DNA of 64,000 bases from contig JAKAPL010000012.1 of NCBI GenBank assembly GCA_021807105.1, forward strand, positions 1 through 64,000. The letters are read 5' to 3'. Of this stretch, positions 820 through 60,471 are shown piece after piece (position 1 is the stretch's first letter; each line of letters opens with the position of its first letter). The translations under genes and the position numbers were made by a program. This DNA comes from Myxococcales bacterium. Lineage in GTDB: Bacteria; Myxococcota; Myxococcia; Myxococcales; JAKAPL01. The notes below the pieces were generated by a model, which saw nothing but the letters and a program-made list of their open reading frames with translations, was not told where the DNA came from and did no database searches.

Positions 820-964
820 CCACCCCTACAACGACATGGGGGGGGGTGCTCGCTCCTTCCTCCTGCGGCGTGCTTTACGCACGCCTCGTCGGTCGTCGCT
901 CTCGCTTGCCCTTCTCGGCTGCGGTCTCGAACGCCTCGCTACGCCGTACCGTGAATTAGACGGG
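820..964 (-). mobile_element. Truncated copy of MITE family 1
   Basis: Read on the minus strand this begins with CCCGTCTAATTCACGG, the 16-bp terminal repeat of the family with one substitution. It follows the family sequence, including the CCCCCATGTCGTTGTAGGGG block seen in the copy at 19514, and stops about two thirds of the way through. It sits directly against the 3' fragment of an Rpn-like gene (after ...GCTCAG on the minus strand), so it appears to have inserted into that gene; the other half is lost. Confidence 0.8.
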
Positions 965-4577: not shown

Positions 4578-4647
4578 GAATCCCGACTGCATCAGCGCCT
4601 CCTGCACCTGGTCGCTCCTTGAGGATCTCGTGAAGCGCGCTCGGCAT
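4578..4647 (-). pseudogene. Rpn-like gene, 5' fragment with internal deletion
   Basis: The ATG opens MPSALHEILKE, which I recognise as a typical start of the myxobacterial Rpn-like family. After about eleven codons the frame jumps and the sequence reads SDQVQEALMQSGF, matching the region just before the EYQSEFARKY segment found at 965-1017. So most of the gene was deleted first, and the remnant was then opened by the IS, whose target duplication GATTC is seen at both breakpoints. On the minus strand the gene follows a family-1 MITE terminus (4712), as if it were cargo of a larger relative of that MITE. Confidence 0.5.
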
Positions 4648-4689
4648 GGCTGCTTAAGCAGGGACGCAGAGCTCATGCCAGAGCTCGGC

Positions 4690-4712
4690 TGCCGGACCGT
4701 GAATAAGACGGG
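4690..4712 (+). mobile_element. Isolated right terminus of MITE family 1 / related larger element
   Basis: The last 22 bases, GCCGGACCGTGAATAAGACGGG, are identical to the right end of the complete MITEs. Inward of this point the sequence differs from the MITE and leads into the start of the Rpn-like gene fragment. This suggests a longer element that shares ends with the MITE but carries a gene. Confidence 0.6.
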
Positions 4713-18310: not shown

Positions 18311-19513
18311 ATGGCCTTGAGCTTCGATTTCTCCGAGGAGCAGCAGCAGACCCGCGCCGCCACCGAGCGGCTCCTGCGGCGCTTCGAGTCGCGCCGCGAG
18401 GAACTGAAGCGGATGATTCTCAAGGAGCAGAGGTTTCCCCAGGAGATGTGGGACGCCTTCGCCGAGGCCGGCATCCTGGGAGCACTCGTCCCCGAGGAGT
18501 ACGGCGGCAGCAACGCCGGACTCCTGTCGATGGCGATCGCCCTCGAGGAGATGGGCGCCCACGGCTTCGGGTCCGCGCTCCTCATCCTGACGGCGATGGA
18601 CACCGCCTGCCTCGTGCGCAACGCGACCGAGGCGATGAAGAAGGAGGTGCTCCCCGAGGTGGCAGCGGGCAAGCTCAAGCTCTGCTTCGCGGTCACCGAG
18701 CCGAACGCCGGTTCGAACACCTTCCGGATCACCACCACGGCCAAGAAGACCGCGGACGGCAAGCATTACCGGCTCAACGGGGAGAAGACCTTCATCACCG
18801 GCGCCGACGTCGCCGACCGGATGCTGCTCGTCGTCCGGACGACGACGCTGGCCGAGTGCAAGGCCGCAGGGCTGCCCAAGGCCGTCGGCCTCTCGCTGCT
18901 GCTCATCGACCCGCACGGCCCCGGGATTACCCTGACCCCGCTGCCGACCCGCGGCATCGAGGGCTTCCGGCAGTTCAGCGTGGTCTTCGAGGACGCGCTC
19001 GTGCCCGCCGACACGCTCGTCGGCGAGCAGGACGGGGGCGCCATCGCCCTGTTCACCTCGCTCAACCCCGAGCGGATCCTCGCTGGCGCGCTCGCGGTCG
19101 GCCTCGCCCAGCACGTGAACAACAAGGCCGCCGCCTACGCGATGGACCGCAAGGTATTCGGGGACGAACCCATCGCCACCCACCAGGCCATCTCGCACCC
19201 GCTCGCCGAGATCCAGATCGAGATCGAGGCGACGAGAAATTTGGTGTACGAGGCCGCCTGGGCGTTCGACAAGGGGCTGGAGCCGGGCGAGGTCGGCTAC
19301 TACGCCAACTGCGCGAAGTTCAAGGCTGCGCGGCTCGCCCTCCACGCCGTGGACCGGGCGATCCAGACGCACGGTGGCGGCGGCTTCTCCGAGGACATGG
19401 GGATCATCTACTACTGGGAGAGCGTGCGTCTGCTGAAGACCGCGCCGATCACCGAGGAGATGATCCTGAACTACGTGGCCGAGCACAAGCTCGGCATGCC
19501 GCGCTCCTATTAG
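18311..19513 (+). CDS. Acyl-CoA dehydrogenase
   Basis: The 400-residue flavoprotein has the standard three-domain order. The N-terminal helical domain starts FDFSEEQQQTRAATERLL; the FAD/substrate motif FAVTEPNAGSNT is at about 139-150; and the C-terminal helical domain carries QTHGGGGFSEDM and the terminal ITEEMILNYVAEH, whose glutamate is a candidate for the catalytic base of this group. It oxidises an acyl-CoA at the alpha-beta position, passing electrons to ETF. It lies downstream of the SCP2 gene with its own GGAGG site. The TAG stop is part of the 5-bp target duplication of the adjoining MITE. Confidence 0.93.
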   Translation: MALSFDFSEEQQQTRAATERLLRRFESRREELKRMILKEQRFPQEMWDAFAEAGILGALVPEEYGGSNAGLLSMAIALEEMGAHGFGSALLILTAMDTACLVRNATEAMKKEVLPEVAAGKLKLCFAVTEPNAGSNTFRITTTAKKTADGKHYRLNGEKTFITGADVADRMLLVVRTTTLAECKAAGLPKAVGLSLLLIDPHGPGITLTPLPTRGIEGFRQFSVVFEDALVPADTLVGEQDGGAIALFTSLNPERILAGALAVGLAQHVNNKAAAYAMDRKVFGDEPIATHQAISHPLAEIQIEIEATRNLVYEAAWAFDKGLEPGEVGYYANCAKFKAARLALHAVDRAIQTHGGGGFSEDMGIIYYWESVRLLKTAPITEEMILNYVAEHKLGMPRSY

Positions 19514-19724
19514 CCCGTCTTATTCACGGTACGGCGTAGCGAGACGTTCGAGACCGCGAGCCGAGAAGGGCAAGCGAGAGCGACGACCGACGAGGCGTCG
19601 CGTGAAGCCCGCCGCAGGAGGTAAGGAGCGAGCAGCCCCCCCATGTCGTTGTAGGGGTGGCAAGCCCCCCCTTCGGGAGGCGCGGGATCGGACGCCGCAG
19701 CAGCCGGACCGTGAATAAGACGGG
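19514..19724 (+). mobile_element. MITE family 1, complete copy A (211 bp)
   Basis: Ends are CCCGTCTTATTCACGG and CCGTGAATAAGACGGG, a perfect 16-bp inverted repeat. The flanks are ATTAG on both sides (19509-19513 and 19725-19729), a 5-bp target duplication. The left duplication contains the TAG stop codon of the acyl-CoA dehydrogenase. This is the longest copy; it has an extra CCCCCCCATGTCGTTGTAGGGGTGG block missing from the other three complete copies. Confidence 0.9.
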
Positions 19725-19767
19725 ATTAGGGAACCTCTCGAACCTCGCGAGGCACTCAGGACTCAGG

Positions 19768-43151: not shown

Positions 43152-43207
43152 GCGAGGCCGAGCATCGGCCGGCGCCCCCTCGTCGCGAGGGAGCGCCTTC
43201 TCATCAT

Positions 43208-43382
43208 CCCGTCTTATTCACGGGACGGCGTAGCGAGACGTTCGAGACCGCAGCCGAGAAGGGCGAGCGAGAGCGACGACCGACGAGGCGGGCTAAAGCC
43301 CGCCGCAGGAGGGAGGAGCGAGCAGCCCCTTCGGGAGGCGCGGGATCGGACGTCGCAGCAGCCGGACCGTGAATAAGACGGG
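43208..43382 (+). mobile_element. MITE family 1, complete copy B (175 bp)
   Basis: The element has the 16-bp ends CCCGTCTTATTCACGG / CCGTGAATAAGACGGG and the duplication ATCAT on both sides (43203-43207 and 43383-43387). It lies between the minisatellite and the CDF gene and, unlike the other complete copies, does not touch a stop codon of a recognised gene. Confidence 0.9.
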
Positions 43383-43624
43383 ATCATGGAGGTCCAGGGC
43401 GCGTCGGCGAGCGGGACGGGCGCGGGCTCCGGCGGGAGCGGCAGCTCGGGCATTGCCGCCGGGGAAGCAGGGGATGGCCGGGGCGATCCTGGGGCGTCCC
43501 GCGCCTCGCGATCAGCGGGCGGTCCGCCCGGCGATCCGGCGAGCGAACCCGCTGTCGGGCTCGACGTCTTCGGTGCTCGCCGGAGAGATCTTCGCACCGC
43601 ACGAGCGTCCTCGGAGGTCGCAGA

Positions 43625-44726: not shown

Positions 44727-44915
44727 TCCAGGAGGCTCGTGTCCCACGGGCGCCGTCGCGAGGAAGCCGAGATCGAGGCGAGACGGGCACCCGAGGAGTG
44801 AACCGCGTCAAACGTACTCTTTGCAGTACGTTTTGCAGCGAAGCGACGAGGCCGCCCGTCGCGAGCGAAGGGCTCGGCTTTCGCGGTCGGCAGCCATTGA
44901 AGCCCAGCCTCCTAG
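44727..44915. mobile_element. Repeat family 2, full-length copy (about 188 bp)
   Basis: The ends are CCAGGAGGCT and AGCCTCCTAG. The interior is about 80% identical by eye to the copy at 61077, including GTCCCACGGGCGCCGTCGCGAG, AAACGTACTCTTTGC, GCGAAGCGACGAGGCCG and GGCTCGGCTTTCGC. An imperfect internal hairpin surrounds ACGTACTCTTTGCAGTACGT. No reading frame is convincing. The rest of the 520-bp gap before xseB holds only its promoter. Confidence 0.8.
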
Positions 44916-48833: not shown

Positions 48834-49577
48834 ATGACCCGGCTCCGCGCCGACCGGCTGCTCCTCGCCCGCGGCCTCGCGAAGAGCCGCACCCAGGCGC
48901 AGGCGCTCGTCATGGCCGGGCAGGTCGTCTCCGGAGAGACACGGATCGACAAGCCCGGCCAGCTCCTCGCCGAGGACGCGCCGCTGCGGCTCAAGGAGGG
49001 CGCACTGCCCCGTTACGTCTCCCGCGGCGGGGAGAAGCTCGCGGCGGCGCTCGGCGCGTTCCGGATCGACCCCACCGGCCTCGCCTGCGCCGATCTCGGC
49101 GCCTCGACCGGCGGCTTCACCGACTGCCTGCTCCAGCACGGCGCGGCGCGGGTGCACGCCTGCGACGTGGGGCGCGGGCAGCTCGACCCCCGGATCGCGC
49201 GCGACCCCCGGGTCGTCGTCCACGACCGGGTGAACGTCCGGGCCTTGCGCCCGGAGGAGCTGGGCGAGCAGGTCGCGCTCTGCACCCTCGATCTCTCGTT
49301 CATCTCGCTGCGGCTCGTCTTCCCGGCCGTCGCGGCCCTCCTCGCCTCCGGCGGCCGGATGGTCGCCCTCGTGAAGCCCCAGTTCGAGGTCGGCCGCGCG
49401 AGGGTCGGCAGGGGTGGGGTGGTGCGCGACCCAGAAGCCCGCGCACAGGCCATCCGGGAGGTCGCCGCCGCGGCGGAGCAGCGACGCTTCGTCGTCGAGG
49501 GCGTCATCGATTCCCCCTTGCGCGGCCCGGCGGGCAACCTCGAAGCGTTGCTCGTCGCGCGGCGGGCGATCGAGTAA
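48834..49577 (+). CDS. tlyA: TlyA-family rRNA 2'-O-methyltransferase
   Basis: An N-terminal S4 RNA-binding domain (RADRLLLARGLAKSRTQAQ, LVMAGQVVSG) is followed by an FtsJ-like methyltransferase. The latter has YVSRGGEKLAAAL, the SAM motif ADLGASTGGFTDCLLQHGA (about 85-103) and ALVKPQFEVGR with the catalytic lysine. At 247 residues it matches TlyA, which methylates ribosomal RNA in relatives and is often annotated as haemolysin. It ends the dxs operon. Its TAA stop lies inside the 5-bp target duplication of the next MITE. Confidence 0.92.
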   Translation: MTRLRADRLLLARGLAKSRTQAQALVMAGQVVSGETRIDKPGQLLAEDAPLRLKEGALPRYVSRGGEKLAAALGAFRIDPTGLACADLGASTGGFTDCLLQHGAARVHACDVGRGQLDPRIARDPRVVVHDRVNVRALRPEELGEQVALCTLDLSFISLRLVFPAVAALLASGGRMVALVKPQFEVGRARVGRGGVVRDPEARAQAIREVAAAAEQRRFVVEGVIDSPLRGPAGNLEALLVARRAIE

Positions 49578-49578
49578 C

Positions 49579-49751
49579 CCCGTCTTATTCACGGTACGGC
49601 GTAGCGAGGCGTTCGAAACCGCAGCCGAGAAGGGCAAGCGCAGCGACGACCGACGAGGCGTGCTGAAGCACGCCGCAGGAGGAAGGAGCGAGCACGCCCT
49701 TCGCAGGCGCGGGATCGGACGCCGCAGCAGCCGGACCGTGAATAAGACGGG
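49579..49751 (+). mobile_element. MITE family 1, complete copy C (173 bp)
   Basis: The 16-bp inverted ends are intact and GTAAC flanks both sides (49574-49578 and 49752-49756). The left duplication contains the TAA stop of tlyA. The 200 bp from here to chrA contain no recognised gene. Confidence 0.9.
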
Positions 49752-49955
49752 GTAACCGCTCCCGGCGACCCGCGGGGCCCCGGGCCCGCGGGCAAGGACG
49801 CGACAGCCCAGGGGAAGAGCCCGATTCGCGCCATCGCCGGCCCCACGAGAACGTGAGGGTGGCTCCCATGTGGGGACCGTTGCGCGGTCCGGCCGATCGA
49901 TGTAATCGAACTCCTCGCGAGCGTGCGGCGATCCCTGGACATTCGAGGCGGGCAG

Positions 49956-58711: not shown

Positions 58712-58788
<77 letters not shown>

Positions 58789-60245: not shown

Positions 60246-60295
60246 ACCAGCCTCCCGCCCACCGCCGGGAGGACAAGAGTCGTGGAGCTTTAAAC

Positions 60296-60471
60296 CCGTC
60301 TTATTCACGGGACGGCGTAGCGAGGCGTTCGAGACCGCGAGCCGAGAAGGGCAAGCGAGAGCGACGACCGACGAGGCGTGCGTAGAGCACGCCGCAGGAG
60401 GAAGGAGCGAGCACGCCCTTCGGGAGGCGCGGGATCGGACGCCGCAGCAGCCGGACCGTGAATAAGACGGG
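60296..60471 (+). mobile_element. MITE family 1, complete copy D (176 bp)
   Basis: Both 16-bp ends are intact. The flanks are TTAAA and TTAGA, an imperfect 5-bp duplication. The right flank (60472-60476) contains the TTA that is the TAA stop of the minus-strand haem lipoprotein gene. Confidence 0.85.

Follow-up and report, generated by a model that had tools for sequence, protein, structure and literature searches.

A family of short, gene-less repeats with 16-bp inverted ends, carried in the unusually high number of about 195 copies by this draft genome, is very probably a group of non-autonomous MITEs that depend on an IS1380-family DDE transposase of the same genome, which binds and cuts their ends in trans, with insertion at N-T-N-A-N sites and removal of gene-breaking insertions by selection. 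The family is real, was apparently amplified in this species and is apparently undescribed, and it assigns a repeat of this abundance to IS1380. Common ends, a duplication rule, empty sites, avoidance of genes and an intact-looking IS1380 transposase gene can all be observed directly. The copies are short, multi-copy and gene-less, their ends are those of resident insertion sequences, the same 5-bp N-T-N-A-N duplication accompanies both, and empty sites exist, all of which place the family among the type I MITEs. Classification as an IS1380 insertion sequence proper was rejected, since the MITE copies have no transposase gene.

In the proposed mechanism, a DDE transposase of the IS1380 family, with its gene at another place in the genome, would bind and cut the 16-bp MITE ends in trans and carry the element to a 5-bp N-T-N-A-N site, which would become duplicated. 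Insertions breaking genes would then be removed by selection, so that survivors would be intergenic, and for a MITE placed in a stop codon the duplication could keep a stop.

Copies in the window

The window, the whole 64-kb stretch of DNA analysed, contains nine exact matches to the 16-bp inverted end CCCGTCTTATTCACGG and one match with a single mismatch, where shuffled sequence leads to an expectation of 0.42 matches at up to three mismatches. Four complete elements of 173-211 bp with perfect 16-bp inverted ends are present, three with exact 5-bp target duplications and the fourth with one mismatch (Table 1). A sequence-only reading of the window had described four complete copies with such ends, and the duplications ATTAG, ATCAT, GTAAC and TTAAA/TTAGA; the end search and the flanks agree with it, as do three of its starts, while the fourth start, given as 60296, is off by one and lies at 60295. 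The truncated copy that it placed at about 820-964 is real, as is its lone end, given as 4690-4712 and now located at 4697-4712 inside a longer repeat. The sole Rfam match in the window is a tRNA gene at 58715-58788 on the minus strand.

Table 1. MITE copies, partial copies and target duplications in the window
Feature	Position	Strand	Remarks
Target duplication ATTAG, left	19509..19513	.	Contains TAG stop codon of acyl-CoA dehydrogenase gene 18311-19513
Complete MITE, 211 bp, perfect 16-bp inverted ends	19514..19724	+	
Target duplication ATTAG, right	19725..19729	.	
Target duplication ATCAT, left	43203..43207	.	
Complete MITE, 175 bp	43208..43382	+	
Target duplication ATCAT, right	43383..43387	.	
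Target duplication GTAAC, left	49574..49578	.	TAA is the stop codon of FtsJ-type methyltransferase gene 48834-49577
Complete MITE, 173 bp, end-to-end single hairpin	49579..49751	+	
Target duplication GTAAC, right	49752..49756	.	
Complete MITE, 177 bp, flanks TTAAA / TTAGA (one mismatch)	60295..60471	+	
Truncated MITE copy	820..964 (left limit approximate)	-	One end at 949-964 with 1 mismatch, other end missing
135-bp repeat finishing in lone MITE end (4697-4712)	4578..4712	-	Second copy at C68:4039-4173, 99% identity

Abundance and structure in the genome

A search of the full genome (a 3.76-Mb draft in 129 contigs) with the 16-bp end, as the sequence-only reading had proposed, returned 323 exact matches and 390 with at most one mismatch, and the reversed end pattern, used as a control, matched nowhere in the whole genome. 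Since 390 ends were found with at most one mismatch, the load is estimated at about 195 copies, or one per 19 kb, which at a mean length of 202 bp make up about 1.05% of the DNA. Pairing, duplications and gene context were counted in 1.70 Mb sampled in stretches, in which 96 paired sets of ends were identified, 92 of them spanning 91-250 bp; most copies belong to size classes of 173-178, 183-191, 205-218 and 238-250 bp, and their orientation is mixed. The copies are alike beside their ends, with TACGGCGTAGCGAG after the left repeat and CCGCAGCAGCCGGA before the right repeat, and differ in central GC-rich modules. The gene-free interior noted earlier is borne out: no transposase can be encoded in 91-250 bp, and the transposases sit on separate elements. 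Among plasmid records, none matches the MITE.

Longer and compound arrangements also occur, including insertions of one MITE into another. At C55:141 and 381, C65:878 and C124:113683-113697, one end is nested immediately inside another (CCCGTCTTATTCAC-CCCGTCTTATTCAC...), as though TTCAC within the inverted repeat had been used as a target. A 773-bp element with MITE ends (L120:4160-4932; C23:44160) has an interior of expanded short GC-rich simple repeats. Another pair of ends, 2.1 kb (2139 bp) apart (L161:12189-14327; C73), surrounds a 451-aa open reading frame. Its candidacy as the parent element was rejected, as the reading frame weakly matches FGE-sulfatase and not a transposase; it represents an old MITE that received an insertion, or else a version that carries cargo.

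Target duplications

The earlier description of a MITE family with 5-bp duplications holds genome-wide, except that not every copy keeps the duplication: exact 5-bp duplications flank 49 of the 96 paired elements, against 4.35 expected with shuffled partners, and exact 4-bp and 6-bp flank matches were each seen once. All 49 exact duplications read N-T-N-A-N, with T at position 2 and A at position 4, and these two bases are retained in 92-94 of the 96 flanks when the whole set, mismatched copies included, is considered.

About half of the sampled copies are without an exact duplication, and both flanks of these mismatched copies still fit N-T-N-A-N. Because T and A are kept at positions 2 and 4, such copies probably represent true insertion sites joined together, either by recombination between copies or by an error of assembly. 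There is an even chance that assembly error, with short-read contigs misjoined in near-identical repeats, produced the mismatched flanks seen in about half of the copies. The draft consists of 129 contigs, many of which start or stop inside a MITE copy, so that many breaks in the assembly can be put down to the MITE; N-T-N-A-N on both sides is what the joining of two true sites would yield; and several mismatched copies have half of a second repeat, family B, on one side only. Real recombination between copies, however, predicts the same pattern, and the divergence of old duplications covers some of the one-mismatch cases. Many of the mismatched flanks are inferred to result from recombination between copies.

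Empty sites in repeat family B

A sequence of about 50 bp was found to be common to 14 MITE flanks and proved to be part of repeat B, a family about 190 bp long, with the ends CTAG/GAGGCTGGTGTGAAATGG ... CCATTTCACACCAGCCTC/CTAG, about 80 half-hits in 1.70 Mb, and copies at or near positions 44728 and 61077 of the window. Repeat B resembles a MITE in its own right, one with a CTAG duplication. Occupied sites read ...GCCGAGAC-CTAAG-MITE-CTAAG-GCGAGACGGG..., and at the same place eight empty copies have a single CTAAG, compared with 13 occupied CTAAG sites. The sequence-only reading had named empty sites with flanks that were never joined as grounds for refutation; examined here on paralogous sites, the flanks are joined at the single CTAAG in these eight copies. 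The remaining B copies mostly have CGAG or CGAA at that place, without T-N-A, and are unoccupied. N-T-N-A-N and other sequences stand at 14:1 among the occupied copies and at 8:42 among the empty ones (Fisher p 7e-8), a contrast that is still clear although the 42 contexts include a few loosely matched ones. Repeat B is a hot spot for the IS1380-type MITE and serves as a natural experiment on its target rule. No orthologous empty sites were recovered in relatives from the genus and the family, where the upstream genes were found without the downstream neighbours next to them.

Gene context and the hairpin fold

Genes were predicted with a home-made codon-usage caller (1416 genes, 84% coding). 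Only 3 of 92 MITE copies overlap a gene, though 78% of N-T-N-A-N sites are genic (p about 1e-54). Eighteen copies, about one in five, sit precisely at a stop codon (TGA 12, TAA 5, TAG 1, as read by script), and 12 of the 18 have an exact duplication, which leaves a stop on both sides. Strong targeting of stop codons was tested and set aside, as the count is only weakly above expectation: 13.1 would be expected from the available non-genic sites (p 0.10), and 11.1 when B-site copies are left out (p 0.02). We read the gene context as the outcome of the target rule and of selection against disrupted genes; any preference for stop codons is mild at most.

Folded end to end, the MITE forms one hairpin (-114.8 kcal/mol, z -12.75), and in each of the 92 copies the last 60 bases pair with 25 or more of the first 40. 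The host might keep the MITE as a transcript hairpin behind genes, a terminator or stability element like REP or ERIC, with its mobility incidental. Such a role, to which the end-to-end hairpin, its pairing in all 92 copies and the 98 of 175 flanking gene sides that are 3' ends would be suited, is very improbable: the target rule and selection largely explain both the avoidance of genes and the stop-codon positions, the orientation is mixed, 19 copies lie between two gene starts, and an Rfam search with the MITE matched no family.

IS1380 transposases in the same genome

Searching the genome itself with DDE_Tnp_1_4 (PF13701) revealed two long transposase genes, so that the long elements with the same ends and a transposase gene, which the sequence-only reading had suggested looking for, are represented by IS1380 elements with near-identical ends on contigs C58 and C23. 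The first (C58:31185-33162) encodes a 474-aa transposase that matches NCBIfam transpos_IS1380 (NF033539) nearly over its full length with 269 bits, the cut-off being 180 bits. Its ends are CCCGGCTTATTCACCG and GCGTGAATAAGACGGG, one identical to the MITE end over 15 bases and the other with two mismatches, and its own flanks, CTGAA and TTAAC, differ. Residues D179, D256 and E369 are invariant among seven relatives and constitute the probable DDE triad; no solved structure resembling the transposase by sequence was found. The second (C23:80604-81995) encodes a C-terminally truncated relative of 388 aa, and each of its ends has one mismatch to the MITE end. Resident IS1380 ends on these two contigs thus match the MITE at 14-15 of 16 bases per end. 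Further single ends of the insertion-sequence type, CCCGTCTTATTCACCG, at C5, C65 and C94 match at 15 of 16 bases and run into sequence like that of the C58 element, and transposase fragments occur at C3, C81, C62, C65 and C126, some of them 91-92% identical to the C58 transposase.

Beyond the ends, the likeness ceases. A blastn comparison of the 245-bp MITE consensus with four IS1380 elements returned only the terminal 12-16 bases and two isolated, chance-level matches to the C58 interior. Derivation of the MITE by deletion from the resident IS1380 copies found no support, its interior not being colinear beyond the inverted repeats; what the MITE shares with these insertion sequences is their ends.

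The same restriction to the ends would suit an arrangement in which the MITE, though of IS1380 type, was amplified by a different IS1380 element that has since been lost or is absent from the draft, with the C58 and C23 copies being only cousins. This is a serious proposal that falls somewhat short of probable. The fragmented assembly, in which many contigs start or stop in repeats, and the several degraded IS1380 pieces, including those 91-92% identical to the C58 transposase, would accommodate it, but the C58 transposase is full length with probable catalytic residues, one C58 end equals that of the MITE over 15 bases, and IS1380 transposases may tolerate the remaining mismatches. Judged from gene and ends, the C58 transposase, or a close copy outside the assembly, appears to have made the movements.

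Just after the transposase gene, inside the intact C58 element, lies an inverted repeat of about 165 bp (L062:2902-3064; GAGCCTGTGAATCAATCC ... GGATTGATTCACAAGCTC), which may be a further small mobile element.

Relatives in other genomes

IS1380 elements of other genomes follow the same rule. An element from the same genus (L070), whose transposase is 64% identical, lies between CCCGTCGTATTCACGC and GCGCGAATAAGACGGG and has CTGAA duplicated exactly; three IS1380 copies in one further genome of the same order (G046) have the duplications GTTAC, CTCAC and ATAAA; and plasmid elements show exact duplications in Celeribacter indicus (TTTAT), Paracoccus aerodenitrificans (TTCAC) and Pseudomonas putida (TTAAA), their ends having been picked by a score that rewards agreement of the duplications and not the N-T-N-A-N form. 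All seven duplications among the relatives examined fit N-T-N-A-N, a target rule common to these IS1380 relatives, and their ends are of the same CCCG..TTATTCA type. Since both ends and target rule agree, the MITE is assigned to this part of the IS1380 family.

The exact 16-mer end is absent from 146 other genomes of the class. In a relative from the genus (G040; L206:1501-1673, L200), a divergent MITE was identified whose body is the same, with up to 91% identity, and the copy at L206 has CTCAG on both sides. The ends of this MITE are altered to CCCGC[AG]TTATTCACGG, which may reflect a change in transposase specificity. Few MITE ends were found in this relative, whose genome is only 69% complete. 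As the same body occurs there with few ends, the family appears to predate the species and to have been amplified here, and the amplification would have happened in this lineage.

Comparison with known systems

The sequence-only reading knew of no named family with these ends; the ends are now placed in the IS1380 family, and the exact MITE family still appears to be undescribed. Like the MITE, members of the IS1380 family, such as IS1247, ISPme1 and ISEcp1, have CCCG ends with TTATTCA, inverted repeats of about 16 bp and 5-bp duplications. The best-known activity of the IS1380 family is the mobilisation of antibiotic-resistance genes by way of ISEcp1. In contrast to these insertion sequences, the MITE measures 91-250 bp, is without a transposase gene and has the ends alone in common with them. 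IS1247 is described with 16-bp repeats that match at 13 positions and a 5-bp duplication (PMC3281130).

Type I bacterial MITEs, such as Chunjie of Geobacter (178-235 bp; PMC10969869) and Correia of Neisseria, are similarly short, gene-less, high-copy, intergenic and variable in size, with inverted ends and duplications. The present family differs from them in its IS1380 parent, its roughly 195 copies in 3.76 Mb and its N-T-N-A-N target. IS1380 goes unmentioned in a 2024 review of prokaryotic MITEs (PMC10969869), and no IS1380-derived MITE was found in the papers searched that name both IS1380 and MITEs. It is tentatively suggested that no IS1380-driven MITE family had been described before this one, and that here the N-T-N-A-N rule, acting in a GC-rich genome, leaves intergenic and stop-keeping insertions and allows an unusually high copy load at little cost.

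ERIC, BOX and RUP are intergenic hairpin repeats present in tens to hundreds of copies, and the pneumococcal ones insert into one another (PMC10969869). They resemble the MITE as intergenic hairpin repeats in high copy. Their parent transposases and targets differ from those of the IS1380-type MITE.
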